A DNA stretch of 41,369 nt from a virus, in the IMG/VR virus record IMGVR_UViG_3300036846_000270, positions 1 through 41,369 of that record; one strand, 5' to 3'. The translations under genes were made by a program, and so were the position numbers. How positions within the stretch are numbered: the first letter of the stretch is position 1; each line of letters starts with the position of its first letter. Shown in pieces: positions 2,516 through 41,369 of this stretch. The notes below the pieces were generated by a model. It did no database searches. It had not been told where the DNA came from and was given only the letters and a program-made list of their open reading frames with translations.

Positions 2516-3697
2516 ATGGCTCTCGACTTTCCGAATAGTCCGACCAACGGTCAGCAGTTTACCGGCGGTGCCGGTACGTGGCAGTGGGACGGAACGAAGT
2601 GGGTGGCCGTAAGCGCTCCCGGCGGTCCGTATTTGCCGCTAACAGGCGGGTCTTTGGGTGGGCCGGGAAATCTGACGGTCGGCGGCTTATTGACCGCCAG
2701 TGGCACGGTGCTCGGGACAACCCCCGGCAACTCGGGCCAGTTCCGCATGGCCCCGAACGCCAGCGGCACCAGCTACGGCTCGTTCTGGCGCAATGACGGC
2801 AGCAACACGTATCTGCTGCTGACCGCCAACAACGATGCGCTCGGTACGTGGAACGCGTTGCGACCGTTTATGGTCAACAATGCGAATGGCTTGGTGACGC
2901 TGAGCAACGGATTGGCCGTTGCGGGCGCTCCCGCGCAGTCGACAATCACTTCGGTCTTTGGAGCAACTACGTGGAACTTTGCGGTAAACAGCGGCGATGA
3001 CGGCGCCGCTGGCAGTATTTCGTATCGTACCTTCGACACTACTGCCCTCAACATTGTCGGCGCGGGCACCGCCAGCGGTAATCGGGCCGTCCATATTTAT
3101 GATAATCTTTACGTCAGCAGCAATGTACAGGTTTATGGCGGTCTTATTTATTTTGCAAGTTCCGGCGCGTATATATCCGCCGATAGCACTAATTTTTCCT
3201 TTAAACTGGGTTCCGGTAACGGTGCATGGTATTTCTTGGATAGCGGCAGCACGCAGAAAATAATAATAAACAAAAGCGGCATCAACTATTCGTATTTGGG
3301 CAGCGGCACCAATCAGATCGGGTGGAACTGGAACGGCTCGGCGATCGGGATTTATGTCGATGGTGGTTATGTCGGTCAGATTAGCGGTCTGTCCGACCGG
3401 CGGGTCAAACGCAACATCGAGCCTTCCCGCAAGGACGCACTCGCGACGCTGAGAGACATTCCGCTCTTTGCCTTTGACCGTATCGCTCACGGCACGGGGC
3501 GGGATGACATTGTCCACCATGCCGATGTCGGGTTTATCGCGCAGGAACTGGAGCCGCTGATCCCCGAGGCCGTGCATCGCGGGATGCGCGCCGAGGACGA
3601 TCTTCTGTCAATCGATCTCTTGCCGGTCTGCGCCTATCTCTTGCGCGCCGTCCAACAGCTCGCCGACGAAGTGGAGGAACTCAAAAATGGCCGCTAG
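2516..3697 (+). CDS. Tail fibre with C-terminal S74 intramolecular chaperone
   Basis: A 393-aa fibre or tailspike protein. The N-terminus has a short WQWDGTKW-type module followed by a Gly/Ser/Thr/Asn-rich shaft. From Ser293 the sequence reads SDRRVKRNI and later GFIAQELEP, the signature of the S74 peptidase/endosialidase chaperone family. In that family the chaperone trimerises the fibre and then cuts itself off just before the Ser of the SD pair. The released chaperone would be about 101 aa. The middle of the gene, about 3100-3330, is clearly more AT-rich than its neighbours, suggesting a swapped receptor-binding part. It lies between gp45 and gp46, where Mu has no gene. Confidence 0.88.
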   Translation: MALDFPNSPTNGQQFTGGAGTWQWDGTKWVAVSAPGGPYLPLTGGSLGGPGNLTVGGLLTASGTVLGTTPGNSGQFRMAPNASGTSYGSFWRNDGSNTYLLLTANNDALGTWNALRPFMVNNANGLVTLSNGLAVAGAPAQSTITSVFGATTWNFAVNSGDDGAAGSISYRTFDTTALNIVGAGTASGNRAVHIYDNLYVSSNVQVYGGLIYFASSGAYISADSTNFSFKLGSGNGAWYFLDSGSTQKIIINKSGINYSYLGSGTNQIGWNWNGSAIGIYVDGGYVGQISGLSDRRVKRNIEPSRKDALATLRDIPLFAFDRIAHGTGRDDIVHHADVGFIAQELEPLIPEAVHRGMRAEDDLLSIDLLPVCAYLLRAVQQLADEVEELKNGR

Positions 3698-9148: not shown

Positions 9149-9168
9149 CCGGCTATAGGACTAGCCGG
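9149..9168. promoter_or_regulatory. Inverted repeat in the divergent intergenic region
   Basis: CCGGCTA and TAGCCGG form 7-bp perfect arms around a 6-bp spacer (taggac). It lies between the divergent genes starting at 9086 (minus) and 9245 (plus), where an operator would be expected. It also contains one GGACTAG, the motif repeated at 9441-9484. No convincing -35/-10 pair was found around it. Confidence 0.4.
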
Positions 9169-9244
9169 CCAGTCGCTTCCCCCTGGCCTACGCCTAGCGA
9201 GATAGACTGTCGCCCAAGGCAAAGGGAAAAGCGAGAGAGCGAAC

Positions 9245-22491: not shown

Positions 22492-23929
22492 GCCGCCCTA
22501 TGCGATCCCGTCGATGCGGGAGATCAAGCGCCGGCGGTTTAATGGTGTTCGTGTCGTTTCGCTCTTCTCCGGCTGCGGCGGATCGAGCCTCGGCTATCGC
22601 ATGGCCGGCTGCAAGGTCGTTTGGGCGAACGAGTTTATTCCCGCGGCGCGTGACAGCTACCGGGCCAATTTCCCGCAAACGACGATCGATCCGCGCGATA
22701 TCCGGGAGATCACCGGTGCGGAGATCATGCAGGCGACCGGCCTCGAGGTCGGCGAACTCGACATCCTCGACGGCTCGCCGCCGTGCGCCTCGTTCTCGAC
22801 CGCCGGGAAGCGGTCCCGCGATTGGGGCAAGGTCAAGGCGTACAGCGAGACCAAGCAGCGGACCGACGATCTCTTTCTTGAATATGTCCGGCTTGTCCGC
22901 GAGCTGCGGCCGAAGCGGTTTATCGCCGAGAACGTCGCCGGTCTCGTAAAGGGCGTCGGCAAGGGTTGGTTTCTCGATATCTACGGCGCGCTCCAAGAGG
23001 CCGGCTATCGCGTCGGTGCACAGCTTCTCGATGCCCAATGGCTCGGCGTCCCGCAGGCGCGGCAGCGGCTTTTCTTTGTCGGCGTCCGCAACGATCTCGA
23101 CGCCGCGCCGGCGTTCCCGAAGCCGCTCCCGTACCGCTACAGCGTCCGCGATGCGCTGCCGTGGATCACCGCTACCGGCGGTATCCGATCGACCGGCTTC
23201 GGCGGCGACCAACTGCAGCCGTCTTCTTTGCCGGCGCAAACTATTATGGCCGGCGGCGGTCACGGTATGAATACGTCGCAGTTTGGCGTTGTCGCAACTA
23301 TCGAGCACGCAAACGGCTGGAACGGCCACGCGCCGCAATCGATCGAGAAGCCGGCGCTAACGATCCAGGCGGACCGGCCGGTCGCGGTTATGACGAAGCG
23401 CGGACCGCGCTCGGCCGAGAAGCCGGCTCCGACCGTGATGACGCATAACCGGCGCTACACCCACGGCGAGCTAAGTCTCACCGTCGAGCCGGAAGCCGAC
23501 ATGACCGGCTACGCGGTCGGCGACGAGCTACGGAAGCTAGCACCTGGTGCGCAGTCCGATCGCTACTTCCAGCTTGTCCGCGCGCCGCTCAACGGACCGT
23601 CGCCGACGATCACCGTCGAAGGCAAGAAAGCGCACGCGGCGTCGGTCGCGCATCCGATCGAGCGGCGCAAATTCTCGATCGCCGAGCTGCGCCGGATATG
23701 CGGCTTCCCGGACGACTTCGTTCTAACGGGAACGTATCAGCAGCAATGGGAGCGGCTCGGCCGCGCGGTCCCGCCGCCGATGATGGCGGCGCTCGTCGCG
23801 GCGAATATCGCGATCGACGCTAGGCCCGCTAGGACAGGCCGTAGCAGGGCGAAGCCGGTTCCGGCTACTACGATAGCGGCGGCGCTCGTTCCCCCTGCTA
23901 GCGCGCCGCCGGAGCCGGCCGCCGCATGA
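22469..23929 (+). CDS. DNA (cytosine-5) methyltransferase
   Basis: A 486-aa C5 methyltransferase. Motif I is SLFSGCGGSSLG (residues 31-42), the catalytic loop is DGSPPCASFS with Cys106, motif VI is AENVAG, motif VIII is PQARQRLFFVG, and the variable target-recognition part is about 205-390, followed by SIAELRRICGFPDDF and a final motif X helix. It would modify phage DNA against host restriction. The target sequence cannot be read by eye. GTG at 22469 is chosen, with GGAG 11 bases upstream; GTG at 22457 is also in frame. An Ala/Pro-rich tail ends it. Confidence 0.92.
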   Translation: MSNAKPPKPPYAIPSMREIKRRRFNGVRVVSLFSGCGGSSLGYRMAGCKVVWANEFIPAARDSYRANFPQTTIDPRDIREITGAEIMQATGLEVGELDILDGSPPCASFSTAGKRSRDWGKVKAYSETKQRTDDLFLEYVRLVRELRPKRFIAENVAGLVKGVGKGWFLDIYGALQEAGYRVGAQLLDAQWLGVPQARQRLFFVGVRNDLDAAPAFPKPLPYRYSVRDALPWITATGGIRSTGFGGDQLQPSSLPAQTIMAGGGHGMNTSQFGVVATIEHANGWNGHAPQSIEKPALTIQADRPVAVMTKRGPRSAEKPAPTVMTHNRRYTHGELSLTVEPEADMTGYAVGDELRKLAPGAQSDRYFQLVRAPLNGPSPTITVEGKKAHAASVAHPIERRKFSIAELRRICGFPDDFVLTGTYQQQWERLGRAVPPPMMAALVAANIAIDARPARTGRSRAKPVPATTIAAALVPPASAPPEPAAA

Positions 23930-37075: not shown

Positions 37076-39514
37076 ATGGCCGGCTATAGCGTCACCTACA
37101 CCGTCGTCGATCAAGCGACGGCGCAGATCAACGCGATAAACAAGCGGATACAGCAGCTCCGCGCGCCGCTCGAAAAGCAAGCGGCGTCGATGCAGAAATT
37201 TATGAACGTGACCGGCCTAAAGGGGGTCGCGACCGGCTTCGAGAAGATCGCCGGGAGCGCGCTATCCGCCGCCAACGCGATCGGCCGCATGGTCCCGGCG
37301 CTCGGCGCGATTACCGGCGCGGCGTCGATCGCCGGCCTCGGGAGGCTCGTCACCGATTTTGCCGATATGGCAGTCGAGCTGACGAAAACCGGGATGATCC
37401 TCGACGAGACGCCCGAAAAGCTGTCCGGCGTCGCCCAGGCGATGCGCTCGCTCGGCGGCGACGCGAAGACCGCGATCGATGCGCTCGTCGAACTAAAGAA
37501 CACCACCTACGACGCCGCGATCGGCCTTAACGCGACCGCCGCCTATGCCTTCGCCCGGGCGAATATTCCGCTGAAGGACTTCAACGGGAATATGCGCGAC
37601 GTAATCGACATCGAGGGAGATGTCTTAAAGCATCTCGACGCGATCCCGAATAGCATGGACCGCCAGCGCGAAGCGTTGCGAATGGGCGGTCAGGCGCTCG
37701 CCGACACCTACAATCAGTACCACGCGCTAGGTATCTCGACGGAAGACTTCATCAAACGCCAGAAGACTATGCAAACGCTCGACGCCGAGCGGACCCGGTC
37801 ATTGCGGCAACTCGATCTCGCGATGGGCGGTCTCAACGCGTCGTTTTACGATCTCGGCGCGACGATCGCCGGCGCTGTCGCTCCCGCGCTGACCGGCATC
37901 TTTAAAGAGATCGGCGGCTATCTCGAAGCTCACAAAGGCGAGATCAGCGCCGAGATCGAGCGGATGGGCAAGGCGTTCGAGCAATGGGTCAAGAGCGGTG
38001 CCGCAAAGCAGATGGCGCAGGACTTCGGCGCGGTTCTCGGCGTCGTTCTCAAACTGGTCGAGGCGCTCGCGAGTGTTATCCGCTATCTCGGCGATCTCCG
38101 GACGCGGCTCAACGGGATGCCGACCGCGGAAGATATCCTCAACGAGTCGCCGCTCGCCAAGGGGCTAAGCGACGAGGAAAAGAAACGCATCCTCGAAGCG
38201 TCGCCGGGAGCGCACGCGACCCCAAATCTATTTCCGGGGCTTTTACCGGGAGAGACGCCCGAACAGCGCGAGCAACGCATCCGCACGCAGCTCGGTGTGC
38301 CGAGCGAGAGGCCCGCGGGTGTCGCACCGGGACAACCATACGGGACCGGGACGATCCCGCCGGTCGGAGCGCCGGCGCCGGCTCCGGCTCCGGCCGCGAC
38401 ACCGACACCGGCTCCGGGACCGCAGGGAGCCGCGGGAGGGCCGCCCGCCGCCTTCGGACAGGCGATCGAGGATGTCGAAAGCAGCGGCGGGACCAATTAC
38501 AACCCGTCGCCGATCCCCGGTCACTCGGCGAGCGGTCCGCGCCAGATGGAACCGTCAACGTTCGCGGAGTATGCCAAGCCGGGAGAGGACATCTCTAATC
38601 CGGCAGACAATCGCCGCGCTAGTGACCGCTACATCAACGCGCTCTGGAAGAAATACGGCGGCGATCCGGAGAAAGTCGCCTACGCCTACGCCAACGGCTC
38701 GATCAGCTCGCCGGACCGCAACCCCGGCTATGTGAAAAAGTTCATGGCGGCTTACAACACCCGCGCAGCTTCCGCGCCTCCGCGGATGCCATCACCCGCA
38801 ACCGTTCCCGGTCCGGCCGGACCAACGCCGGATTCGTCCGTTCCTCGCGCACCAAACACGCCGGGAGGCAGCATCGGGCCGGTCATGGACCAGATGTTCG
38901 CGATGGCTGGCACCCGCGGGAAAGACGTTCGCGAATTTCTCCGCGACCCACAAGGCAAGCTTCAACACGACCCGGAACTCGGCAACTGGTGCGCGGAATA
39001 CGTCAACGCCTATTTGCAACACGTTGGCGTCCCCGGCACGACCGGGCCGGATCATTTGATGGCGGCGTCGTTCCTGCGTTGGGGACAACAGGTCGAGCAA
39101 GGCGAGGTCCGCCAGGGCGACATCCTGTTGAACAAAAACCTCGCGCCGGGAAAGGCTCATGTCGGCGTCGCGACGGGGCGGTCGTGGCTCAATACGCCGG
39201 GACACAAGCCGGGTGAGGTCGAGGAATACTCGTCGAACTCCATCGATCCCGTCACCGGCCAATTGCTGAACCTTCCCGGCTTCCGCTGGCGCAGCGATGT
39301 CAATGTCCGGCGTTCCGCGGAATTGGCGGCGCTTCAAGCGCAGGGCGCGCCCGGAACGCTTCTCGCCGGCGGCGGGATGCCCAACGGCGGGGTCAATATC
39401 AGTGTGACGCATAAAAACGCGCCGTCCGATGTCTCGGTCGCCGCGACAAGCTTCGGGACCGGCCTCAATCTCGCCGCGCCGCGCGTCGAGCATCAGCAAT
39501 TCGGGCAGATATGA
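37076..39514 (+). CDS. Tape measure protein with two cell-wall-lytic domains
   Basis: An 812-aa protein. The N-terminal ~380 residues are the helical tape part, with a hydrophobic stretch near 70-90 (ALGAITGAASIAGLG). A Pro-rich linker (about 395-455) leads to an SLT-type lytic transglycosylase domain (460-555): FGQAIEDVESSGG with Glu468 as likely catalytic acid, then HSASGPRQMEPSTFAEYA. A second linker leads to a CHAP/NlpC-P60-like amidase domain (600-725): GNWCAEYVNAYL with Cys639 and AHVGVATG with His695. Both would open the wall during DNA entry. The length suits a fairly short contractile tail. Confidence 0.88.
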   Translation: MAGYSVTYTVVDQATAQINAINKRIQQLRAPLEKQAASMQKFMNVTGLKGVATGFEKIAGSALSAANAIGRMVPALGAITGAASIAGLGRLVTDFADMAVELTKTGMILDETPEKLSGVAQAMRSLGGDAKTAIDALVELKNTTYDAAIGLNATAAYAFARANIPLKDFNGNMRDVIDIEGDVLKHLDAIPNSMDRQREALRMGGQALADTYNQYHALGISTEDFIKRQKTMQTLDAERTRSLRQLDLAMGGLNASFYDLGATIAGAVAPALTGIFKEIGGYLEAHKGEISAEIERMGKAFEQWVKSGAAKQMAQDFGAVLGVVLKLVEALASVIRYLGDLRTRLNGMPTAEDILNESPLAKGLSDEEKKRILEASPGAHATPNLFPGLLPGETPEQREQRIRTQLGVPSERPAGVAPGQPYGTGTIPPVGAPAPAPAPAATPTPAPGPQGAAGGPPAAFGQAIEDVESSGGTNYNPSPIPGHSASGPRQMEPSTFAEYAKPGEDISNPADNRRASDRYINALWKKYGGDPEKVAYAYANGSISSPDRNPGYVKKFMAAYNTRAASAPPRMPSPATVPGPAGPTPDSSVPRAPNTPGGSIGPVMDQMFAMAGTRGKDVREFLRDPQGKLQHDPELGNWCAEYVNAYLQHVGVPGTTGPDHLMAASFLRWGQQVEQGEVRQGDILLNKNLAPGKAHVGVATGRSWLNTPGHKPGEVEEYSSNSIDPVTGQLLNLPGFRWRSDVNVRRSAELAALQAQGAPGTLLAGGGMPNGGVNISVTHKNAPSDVSVAATSFGTGLNLAAPRVEHQQFGQI

Positions 39515-40323
39515 GCGCCGCGCCGCCGCTCAATCCGATCGGTACGGCCGCGCAGACGCCGGCCGACACTTCGGGAACGTCCTGGCTCGGCGGCTCATGG
39601 TGGCAGCAGCTACAGCCGGGATCGTGGCGCGGCGTCGGCTTTGTTCTCGACGCGGCTCCGACCAAAGCCGGCCGGCGGGTCGCGCTTCACGAATACCCCT
39701 ATCGCGACACCATCTGGCCGGAAGACCTGGGCAAGCTGCCGCGCCGGTTCCAAGTCAGCGCGTTTCTCGTCGGCGATGATTGCTACCAGCAGAAAAAGCG
39801 GATGATCGCCGCCTGTGAGCAAGCCGGAGCCGGGACGCTCGTTCATCCGACGCTCGGCTCTGTGCAATGCGTCTTGATGGACTTTACGACGACCGACCGG
39901 CGCGATCGCGGCCGTTATGTCGAGGTCGAATTCGAGTTCATCGACGCCAGCACCGCGACGCTCTCGCCGGCCGCGAGCGCGGCGACCGGGAACGCGGTCA
40001 AATCGATGGCGACGTCCCTCAATACCGTCGCCTCGACCGCGCTCGGCCAGAACCTCGCCGGTCTCCGGCCGACGCCGACCGCGCCGACCCAGTTCATCAG
40101 CAATTTCGCCAGCGTCGCGGTTGACGCGGTCAACGATCCGGCGCGCGCGCTTAACGCCGTCGTCGGCCTTCCCGGTCTCTTCGGTCGGTATAGCAACGGC
40201 CGGCTTTCGACGTTGCTCCCGGCGACCGCGACGGTCGCCTCGACGCTCGCCCAGGCGACGACGACCCGGCAAGCGGTTATCGATGCGGCAAGCGCGCTTG
40301 TCGCCGCGGGAAACCGGCTCTAG
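39511..40323 (+). CDS. Mu gp43 (gpN)-like protein, N-terminal half
   Basis: A 270-aa protein. SWWQQLQPGSWRGVGFVLDA, then EYPYRDTIWPEDLGKLPRRF and YVEVEFEFID are the DNA-circularisation N-terminal (DNA_circ_N) pattern of Mu gpN-type tail proteins. In related phages this domain and the region encoded at 40400-40966 form one protein of about 450-490 aa; here a TAG ends the first half. It probably belongs to the baseplate hub end. It overlaps the tape measure stop as ATGA. Confidence 0.85.
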   Translation: MSAAPPLNPIGTAAQTPADTSGTSWLGGSWWQQLQPGSWRGVGFVLDAAPTKAGRRVALHEYPYRDTIWPEDLGKLPRRFQVSAFLVGDDCYQQKKRMIAACEQAGAGTLVHPTLGSVQCVLMDFTTTDRRDRGRYVEVEFEFIDASTATLSPAASAATGNAVKSMATSLNTVASTALGQNLAGLRPTPTAPTQFISNFASVAVDAVNDPARALNAVVGLPGLFGRYSNGRLSTLLPATATVASTLAQATTTRQAVIDAASALVAAGNRL

Positions 40324-40328
40324 GCGCG

Positions 40329-40362
40329 ATGACGCTTCTTTTGGCTAGCGTCATAGCCAAAA
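40329..40362 (+). repeat. Two interlocked inverted repeats in the gp43 gap
   Basis: Stem A: ATGACGCT (40329-40336) with AGCGTCAT (40347-40354). Stem B: TTTTGGCT (40339-40346) with AGCCAAAA (40355-40362). Both are perfect 8-bp stems; the 5' arm of B lies in the loop of A and the loop of B is the 3' arm of A, so the two hairpins exclude each other or form a strained pseudoknot. The ATG of the 24-codon ORF opens stem A. Confidence 0.8.
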
Positions 40363-40403
40363 CCCTTTTCCCCCTGCTACGGGCCGCGAGCCGCGACCTA
40401 TGA
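40329..40403 (+). CDS. 24-aa coupling micro-ORF between gp43 halves
   Basis: ATG to TGA, 24 residues, starting MTLLLASVIAKTLFPLL. Its stop overlaps the next ATG as ATGA, the coupling form used throughout this genome, and it begins 5 bases after the upstream stop. It may carry ribosomes across the gap, with access to its ATG set by the interlocked hairpins. No ribosome site is evident. Confidence 0.4.
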   Translation: MTLLLASVIAKTLFPLLRAASRDL

Positions 40404-40966
40404 GCGGCGCAACCGACGCCTTCGCCGAAGCTTCGGCCGCGCTCGCCGACGCGGTCGTCGCGGCGACCAATGATCCCGCCGACGCGGTCCGGCTTCTCTT
40501 GCCGCTCTGCCACTGGCAACCGACGTCGGTCTTCGGGAGCGGACCGCTCGCCGGCGTTATGACCGCGTGGCAAACCGCGATCGTCCGGAACCTCCACTGC
40601 GCGGCGCTCGCGGCGCTCGCGGTCGCGGCGACCGCCTATCAGCCGATCAGCTATCAAGACGCGCAATCGCTCCGCTCGATGGTCTGCGCCGCGATCGACG
40701 CCGAAGCGACGCTCGCGGCCGACGCCGGCGACGACGCGACCTATGGCGCGCTCCGCAATCTCCGCGTCGCCGTCGCGATCGATCTCGCGATCCGCGGCGC
40801 GAATCTCCCGGCGCTCGTCGAGGTTACGACCCTCGTCTCGATGCCGTCGCTCGCCGAAGCTTGGGCGCTCTACCAAGACACCAGCCGCGAGCCGCAGCTC
40901 GTCGCTTCGGCCGACGCGCCGCATCCGCTTTTTCTCCCGCTCAGCTTCCCGGCGCTGTCGCAATAG
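40400..40966 (+). CDS. Mu gp43-like protein, C-terminal half
   Basis: A 188-aa helical protein. VRNLHCAALAALAVAATAYQ, then SMVCAAIDAEATLAADAGDD, LRNLRVAVAIDLAIRGANLP and a final PLFLPLSFPALSQ match the C-terminal part of Mu-type gp43/DNA-circularisation proteins of alpha- and betaproteobacterial phages. Here it is a separate gene in another frame (the first half is in frame 1, this one in frame 2). The two products presumably act together. Confidence 0.7.
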   Translation: MSGATDAFAEASAALADAVVAATNDPADAVRLLLPLCHWQPTSVFGSGPLAGVMTAWQTAIVRNLHCAALAALAVAATAYQPISYQDAQSLRSMVCAAIDAEATLAADAGDDATYGALRNLRVAVAIDLAIRGANLPALVEVTTLVSMPSLAEAWALYQDTSREPQLVASADAPHPLFLPLSFPALSQ

Positions 40967-41369
40967 ATGGCCGACGATATCCCCGCGACGACACTCGACG
41001 ATGTCGATGTCAACGCGCCGGCGGTCCCGGCGAACAACAACCCGACCGCCTCGACCACCTACAAAGCGCCGACGCCGGCCGGCGGCGACGACCTGACGCT
41101 GACGATCGGCGACGTTAGCTGGGTCGGCTGGCAACGGGTCCAACTGACGCGCTCGATGGATACCGTCCCGGCCAATTTTGAAATTCAGGTCACGGAGCGA
41201 TACCCCAACCAGCCGGATATCGACATCAAACCCGGCGCGCCATGTACGGTGAAGCTTGGCGGCGATCTCGTCCTGACCGGCTATATCGACCGTTACGACG
41301 CCGCGGTAAATGCGCGCGAGCATGTCGTCCACATCAGCGGCCGCTCGAAGTCGGCCGACCTTGTCGATT
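40967..41369 (+). CDS. Mu gp44-like baseplate hub protein, 5' part
   Basis: The first 92 codons, before the overlap, plus the repeated start of the window. The gene continues at base 1. An N-terminal ~35-residue Pro/Asn-rich stretch precedes DDLTLTIGDVSWVGWQRV, where the conserved Mu gp44 fold begins. The ATG directly follows the previous stop. Confidence 0.85.
   Translation, partial: MADDIPATTLDDVDVNAPAVPANNNPTASTTYKAPTPAGGDDLTLTIGDVSWVGWQRVQLTRSMDTVPANFEIQVTERYPNQPDIDIKPGAPCTVKLGGDLVLTGYIDRYDAAVNAREHVVHISGRSKSADLVD
41243..41369. repeat. Terminal overlap, right copy
   Basis: Identical to bases 1-127. See the left copy: the contig closes into a circle here. Confidence 0.97.

Follow-up and report, generated by a model that had tools for sequence, protein, structure and literature searches.

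A bridging reading frame at the junction of a split gp43-type tube initiator gene in a soil phage, a candidate ribosome relay

How does translation reach the second part of a divided gene when an extra segment of DNA lies between the two parts? The question is raised by the virus record IMGVR_UViG_3300036846_000270, from a soil phage, which was analyzed over its whole length of 41,369 bases (the window). In its baseplate operon, a gp43-type tube initiator is predicted to be encoded by two open reading frames (ORFs), A and B, that are separated by 76 nucleotides (nt) in place of the stop/start overlap found in many relatives. A preliminary description of this DNA had placed A and B in different frames, with a 24-amino acid ORF in the gap whose ATG opens a hairpin and whose stop overlaps the B start, and all of these features were recovered. 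It had read the gap as a translational switch that sets the ratio of the two proteins. On balance, the 24-codon ORF is here read as a probable translational relay, passing ribosomes from A to B.

ORF A carries a DNA_circ_N domain (PF07157; E 3.5e-30, 104.8 bits against a cut-off of 21) and aligns to positions 4-228 of phrog_184, while ORF B aligns to positions 272-401 of the same family (E 1.5e-23). Among solved structures, A matches residues 26-252 of Mu gp43 (9ki1, E 2.3e-20), and B matches the hub of phage 7-7-1 (9rku, 258-376, E 2.4e-6) and Milano gp25 (8fqc, 230-379, E 4e-4). The predicted model of A, with a mean pLDDT of 62 and informative for gross layout only, has a beta domain and helices, with a helix at the very end; that of B is all-helical with a helix at its start. 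Since the one model ends and the other begins with a helix, the cut appears to fall between helices. Foldseek searches returned 9ki1 for the low-confidence A model (E 1.2e-9), and again 9rku and 8fqc as best matches for B. Mu gp43 is a hexamer with tube-like and helix-rich domains linked through a flexible loop (PMC11915804). Because of these matches and this two-domain architecture, A and B are assigned, by homology, as two parts of one known subunit, the tube initiator of the Mu gp43 type. A then B match both parts of Mu gp43, Milano gp25 and the 7-7-1 hub in the same order, but as two polypeptides where each of those is one. The pair has both the DNA_circ_N domain (in A) and the C-terminal helical part (in B), though not on a single polypeptide, and by its homology in both parts is classed as a split variant of the phrog_184/PF07157 family. 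In phages Pam3, XM1 and E217 the neighbor of the tube initiator is a small, separate protein, BH1a (PMC11915804); ORF B differs in being, by sequence, a piece of the gp43 helical domain.

A survey of 169 distinct A/B junctions found 82 fused and 67 split with a 4-nt ATGA/GTGA overlap, in which the B start lies one base ahead of the A stop codon; the remainder have other spacings. Fused forms are mainly from distant relatives (~30-40% identity), whereas above 50% identity almost every locus is split, L008 being the one fused exception. The earlier view that a single protein is usual thus holds for the wider family but not within the phage's own clade, where two ORFs are the usual state. In the close clade it is the insert, not the split, that is the unusual feature. 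Komagataeibacter phage phiKM1 has been deposited with two overlapping coding sequences and Acetobacter phage phiAP1 with one, and Acetobacteraceae genomes also carry split forms. Sequencing error, put forward in the preliminary description as what would refute it, is ruled out as the cause of the split, which is present in dozens of independent contigs and in the isolated and annotated phiKM1. A programmed frameshift or bypass that rejoins A and B is not favored: in relatives the stop and start overlap cleanly, and inspection of the A stop by eye showed no obvious slippery heptamer. L008 and L088 have fused A+B within an otherwise split clade (60-64% identity), perhaps through refusion or through exchange with a fused phage.

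Five distinct inserts of 76-90 nt replace the overlap: those of the window, L035, L039/L040, L042/L043 and L052/L054. In L035 the segment (2922-3001) measures exactly 80 nt and lies between ctg and TGA in alignment with its insert-free sister L096, in which A is 86% identical and the empty site falls exactly at the ctg/TGA boundary. Close relatives L033 and L004 likewise have empty sites. The edges of the insert are clean in the alignments, and no target duplication was seen. The loci with an insert do not form a single clade in the tree of A+B. The window groups with L007 and the insert-free L004, L035 with the insert-free L096, and L039, L042 and L054 with each other. The insert may have been gained repeatedly, lost repeatedly or exchanged between phages, all of which fit this distribution alike. 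Its ends are inverted repeats (L035 2922-3001, TAGGGCGC / GCGCCCTA; window 40321-40400, TAGGCGCG / CGCGACCTA), which suggests a tiny mobile element; in the window the ends are partly complementary, with 1.4% of shuffles as good. No DNA match of substance to the insert was found in annotated phages or in 397 related host-family genomes, the single match in the latter covering only the B-proximal 30 bases. A 14-nt match of the L035 insert to gp44 coding sequence is regarded as coincidence. A long-range stem joining the A stop to the B start can be drawn for the window, L035 and L042 (1.4, 0.6 and 4.3% of shuffles do as well, respectively) and is missing in L039 and L054; with a probability of only 0.02 in a 200-nt context, it is not relied on. 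The L005 and L006 junctions, which read TAGggcacATGAGC and TAGggggcATGAGC, look like deletion products between two ATGs. Different inserts are present at the A/B junctions of L053 (~392-630), with a 54-amino acid ORF (MDLIPIFTHEQAWRVFELRRRIVEGQAVEMRWPVAIEIDNPKDPELVVAAVLGAG) starting at the A stop (TGATG), and of L335 (206 nt), with an ORF of ~48 amino acids that resembles a secreted His/Tyr/Trp-rich peptide (MKSVHLIAICLCVAGVMATPAQASCWYDGYYWHCWHHHYWQHRDYRRR).

All five distinct inserts carry a bridging ORF, with a start codon 4-5 nt past the A TAG and a frame that is open into the B start. Shuffled gaps give such an ORF with a probability of 0.053-0.103 each, and the product of 2e-6 overstates the case, as the five inserts are related. 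The stop of the bridging ORF lies in the ATGA/GTGA at the B start, with the 4-nt overlap, in the window, L035 and L042. No Shine-Dalgarno-like motif precedes B in the window, L035, L039 or L042, nor in 59 of the 67 loci with the 4-nt overlap. Published measurements put the drop in reinitiation at 80-100% for a spacing of 38 nt in E. coli, and in H. volcanii 22 nt is enough to abolish it (PMC10666635); across 76 nt, translation of B should therefore lose its coupling to A unless a relay is present. The relay is preferred because B lacks a Shine-Dalgarno motif and the gap exceeds these published distances. A review describes short ORFs of this kind, which hand ribosomes on to the gene that follows (PMC12548453).

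As proposed here, the tube initiator would have become two proteins, A with the tube-like domain and some helices and B with the remaining helical part, and the two presumably come together again in the baseplate; gene overlaps are enriched among subunits of complexes (PMC10666635). At the ordinary 4-nt overlap, B, being without a Shine-Dalgarno motif, would be translated by ribosomes arriving directly from the end of A. The insert of ~80 nt would supply a new stop for A (TAG), a start 5 nt further on and a frame open to the old stop at the B start. Ribosomes ending A would then restart on the bridging ORF, end at the B start and restart on B. The act of translating the bridging ORF would be what matters, and neither the peptide nor the hairpins. 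Translation of the bridging ORF, reinitiation and A-B association are each inferred.

The 76-base gap does contain, as first described, two perfect 8-bp stems that exclude each other, as they overlap. The bridging ORF starts with the ATG of stem 1. Stem 2 extends to 9 bp (40339-40347 / 40354-40362) with a 6-nt loop, GCGTCA. Their energies are nearly equal (-10.7 kcal/mol for stem 1, -10.9 kcal/mol for stem 2), with occupancies in a 200-nt context of about 0.90 and 0.10, respectively. An H-type pseudoknot is rejected, as there is no loop 3 and 0 nt separate the 3' arms of the two stems, which makes them alternatives. None of 20,000 shuffles of the gap gave such an interlocked pair, but 1 of 30 shuffles of the full 41-kb window did so at some position, which makes the pair unusual without being overwhelming once the whole window is considered. 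Hairpins of 8 bp are present in the window in ordinary number (54, with 47 expected). Conserved RNA structure across the inserts is also rejected, as the folds differ and only those of the window and L035 beat most shuffles. No Rfam 15 family matched the window above its gathering score.

Stem 2 lies for the most part within a repeated element of the form GCTA-N6-TAGC-N10/11-TTCCCC. The dyad GCTA-N6-TAGC is found three times in the window against 0.16 expected, each time followed after 10-11 nt by TTCCCCCT, and the joint pattern with TTCCCC has three occurrences against none in 100 shuffles. The pattern was noticed before being tested: an alignment search with the inserts led to the copy at 23.85 kb, and reading the few TTCCCCC sites led to that at 9.15 kb. 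The alignment of copies 1 and 2, ~100 nt long, scores 53, against a best of 44 that shuffled queries reached anywhere in the window. The window insert scores 40 with copy 2 (null maximum 33) and 48 with L380, and the L039, L042 and L054 inserts are at the edge of significance. Relatives lend the element independent support. In L380 it is at the same methyltransferase 3' end with a different central hexamer, and the L033 phage has a further copy, GCTATGACCATAGC-N10-TTCCGCC, in a comparable place at the late-gene end (model search E 0.15; the dyad fits exactly). Within about 390 kb of phage sequence there are six dyads, five of them with the downstream box. Among the viral contigs that match the full pattern, L381-L385 appear unrelated, and L380 alone is a true relative. 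The half-sites of four bases are invariant and the outer pairs vary. As the copies are read in different frames or in none, this is a nucleic-acid element, likeliest a putative protein-binding site that may be an operator or promoter site. A second copy of their own insert was sought for L035, L042 (a near-complete genome) and L054 and was not found. The L039 phage has a diverged second copy of its own insert (L392 648-582, CCGCCACTACCCTACCAG...) ~9.5 kb downstream, just past a gene end, although this match is weak (1 of 40 shuffles as good). In addition, CGCACAAAAAA followed by a G+C-rich hairpin, with the shape of a minus-strand terminator, occurs three times in about 390 kb (window 23934, L380 1778 and L396, a contig of the L033 phage, 12254), each shortly downstream of a GCTA-N6-TAGC element and at two unrelated loci.

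Several observations weigh against a relay. The bridging ORF ends ~20 nt (L039) or 11 nt (L054) inside B, with no 4-nt overlap; L054 has a weak Shine-Dalgarno-like motif ahead of B, and the start of the bridging ORF has none of its own. The distinct insert sequences number just five and fall into two related groups, so that five of five are not five independent events. The peptides of the window and L035 are 64% identical ungapped over the ORF, but by codon position the identities are 56/56/80%, highest at the third, and frame 0 has the best BLOSUM score of the forward frames across the five inserts with a column-shuffle fraction of 0.047; a conserved peptide product is weak at best by these comparisons. 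B could also be transcribed or initiated independently. A neutral spacer, that is, a chance insertion or remnant with no selected function, tolerated since start, open frame and ATGA were kept, would be in line with the fast divergence of the inserts and their gain or loss along the tree, and random G+C-rich sequence fairly often keeps a short frame open. However, this is improbable given that each insert had a chance of 5-10% of a bridging ORF in shuffles and all five have one, with the start codon at a conserved distance from the A TAG. A switch in which the competing stems alternately permit and block translation of the small ORF, thereby fixing the A:B ratio, has in its favor that the stems are perfect, mutually exclusive and energetically balanced, and that stem 1 hides the ATG of the small ORF. 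However, neither stem occurs in the L035, L039, L042 or L054 inserts, so that the stems are not conserved, an outcome that the preliminary description had itself named as refuting, and there is nothing to covary, and the fold of the gap does not go beyond a z of -1.45 against shuffles. Stem 2 is moreover part of the repeated element, which is also found at sites without such an arrangement. A 1:1 supply of A and B, and not a variable ratio, is expected because both are parts of one hexameric tube initiator in Mu, and no ligand or regulator is suggested. The hairpin switch is thus very improbable; what survives of the proposed translational switch is that the gap probably acts in translation through the small ORF, as suggested by the bridging ORF in every insert and the B starts mostly without a Shine-Dalgarno motif.

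The insert may instead act in transcription, as a copy of a phage regulatory site (the dyad GCTA-N6-TAGC then TTCCCCC) by which B and the baseplate genes after it are controlled, as by an operator, or transcribed, as from an internal promoter; the small ORF would then be incidental. This is possible, if unlikely, and is compatible with the relay, as both can hold together. In phage Mu, the C-activator site lies just ahead of late promoters and is likewise a short dyad, TTAT-N6-ATAA. The 6-bp spacer is the same as in the element but the half-sites differ, and the likeness is a lead only. The absence of the pattern from shuffles, the different central six bases of the L380 and L033 copies, the invariant half-sites with varying outer pairs, as in a protein-binding dyad, and the position of two copies 32-37 nt ahead of a start codon all agree with such a role. 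Mu also has late promoters (lys, I, P and mom) whose activator site lies upstream of -35 (PMC4461284). On the other hand, no sigma-70-like promoter was found at any of the three copies (in a scan confined to that promoter type), the dyad is absent from the L035, L039, L042 and L054 inserts, and the near-complete L042 genome is without a second insert copy. No matching activator gene was found, with no Pfam match to the C/Mor family among the part of the window ORFs that was scanned. An intrinsic terminator is also rejected, there being one marginal candidate near chance level. Relay and element would be combined if an interspersed family of ~80-100 nt (GCTA-N6-TAGC ... TTCCCCC) settles at operon ATGA junctions and, at the gp43 junction, supplies its own stop, start and bridging frame, keeping translation coupled, while the dyad may also regulate transcription. 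This would be a phage counterpart of the mycobacterial interspersed repetitive units (MIRUs), and is an unlikely reading.

MIRUs (Supply et al. 1997), as outlined in a review, are natural inserted segments with their own small ORF coupled at -4 nt (PMC12548453). In that outline the likeness lies in a short interspersed segment inserted at a start codon, with its own small ORF coupled to the next gene at -4 nt spacing, in relatives with empty sites and possibly in diverged copies elsewhere in the genome. The -4 nt coupling is present in the window, L035 and L042, and L039 and L054 overlap by more. The present case differs from that outline in its phage setting and in the link to A, which is TAG, 5 nt and ATG, not an overlap. 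One alone of the three interspersed copies in the window has a bridging ORF and the copies are strongly diverged. The comparison with MIRUs is one of architecture, and mobility is here hypothetical. Termination-reinitiation at ATGA/TGATG overlaps (PMC6728339, PMC10666635) is the ordinary state of A/B in relatives; the mini-ORF keeps the 4-nt overlap with B, but here a third, 24-codon cistron is interposed. The bicistronic design of expression vectors (PMC5995908, PMC12548453) likewise uses a short translated leader to bring ribosomes to the next start, whereas the leader here is natural, operon-internal and without a Shine-Dalgarno motif. The same gene pair, fused, overlapped by 4 nt or separated by a mini-ORF, is a natural and phylogenetically framed test of translational coupling. 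If the relay is true, it would show how coupled junctions inside operons withstand insertions, and that very small ORFs missing from annotations can influence expression even when their peptide has no function. The division of this tube initiator, whose structure is known, into two subunits also offers a convenient case for work on baseplate assembly.

Table. Coordinates in the window of the split tube initiator locus, the copies of the repeated element and the adjoining genes.
Feature	Position	Strand	Remarks
ORF A, predicted N-terminal part of gp43-type tube initiator (DNA_circ_N)	39511..40323	+	frame 1, 270 amino acids, TAG stop
ORF B, predicted C-terminal helical part of gp43-type tube initiator	40400..40966	+	frame 2, 188 amino acids; no Shine-Dalgarno motif
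80-nt insert (TAG ... CCTA)	40321..40400	+	at ancestral A-stop/B-start overlap; 76-nt gap = 40324-40399
24-codon bridging ORF MTLLLASVIAKTLFPLLRAASRDL	40329..40403	+	start 5 nt past A TAG; stop inside B ATGA
Stem 1	40329..40354	+	ATGACGCT (40329-40336) with AGCGTCAT (40347-40354); covers bridging-ORF start codon; absent in relatives
Stem 2	40339..40362	+	TTTTGGCT (40339-40346) with AGCCAAAA (40355-40362)
Element copy 1	9151..9184	+	intergenic, between late-gene end and integrase; alignment score with copy 2, 53
Element copy 2	23863..23896	+	3' end of C5 methyltransferase gene, just before ATGA junction at 23926
Element copy 3, core GGCTA-N6-TAGC-N10-TTCCCCCT	40343..40375	+	holds most of stem 2
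Tape measure	37076-39514		baseplate operon, before ORF A; ATGA overlap with ORF A start at 39511
gp44-like hub	from 40967, continuing at window start		ATG directly after ORF B stop

The record is probably a complete genome, cut within the hub gene, because it has a 127-bp direct terminal repeat (1-127 = 41243-41369). Its genes include terminase, portal and head genes and a Mu/SfV-like contractile tail. An integrase gene is found on the minus strand, and the phages of this clade are, on the best explanation, temperate.

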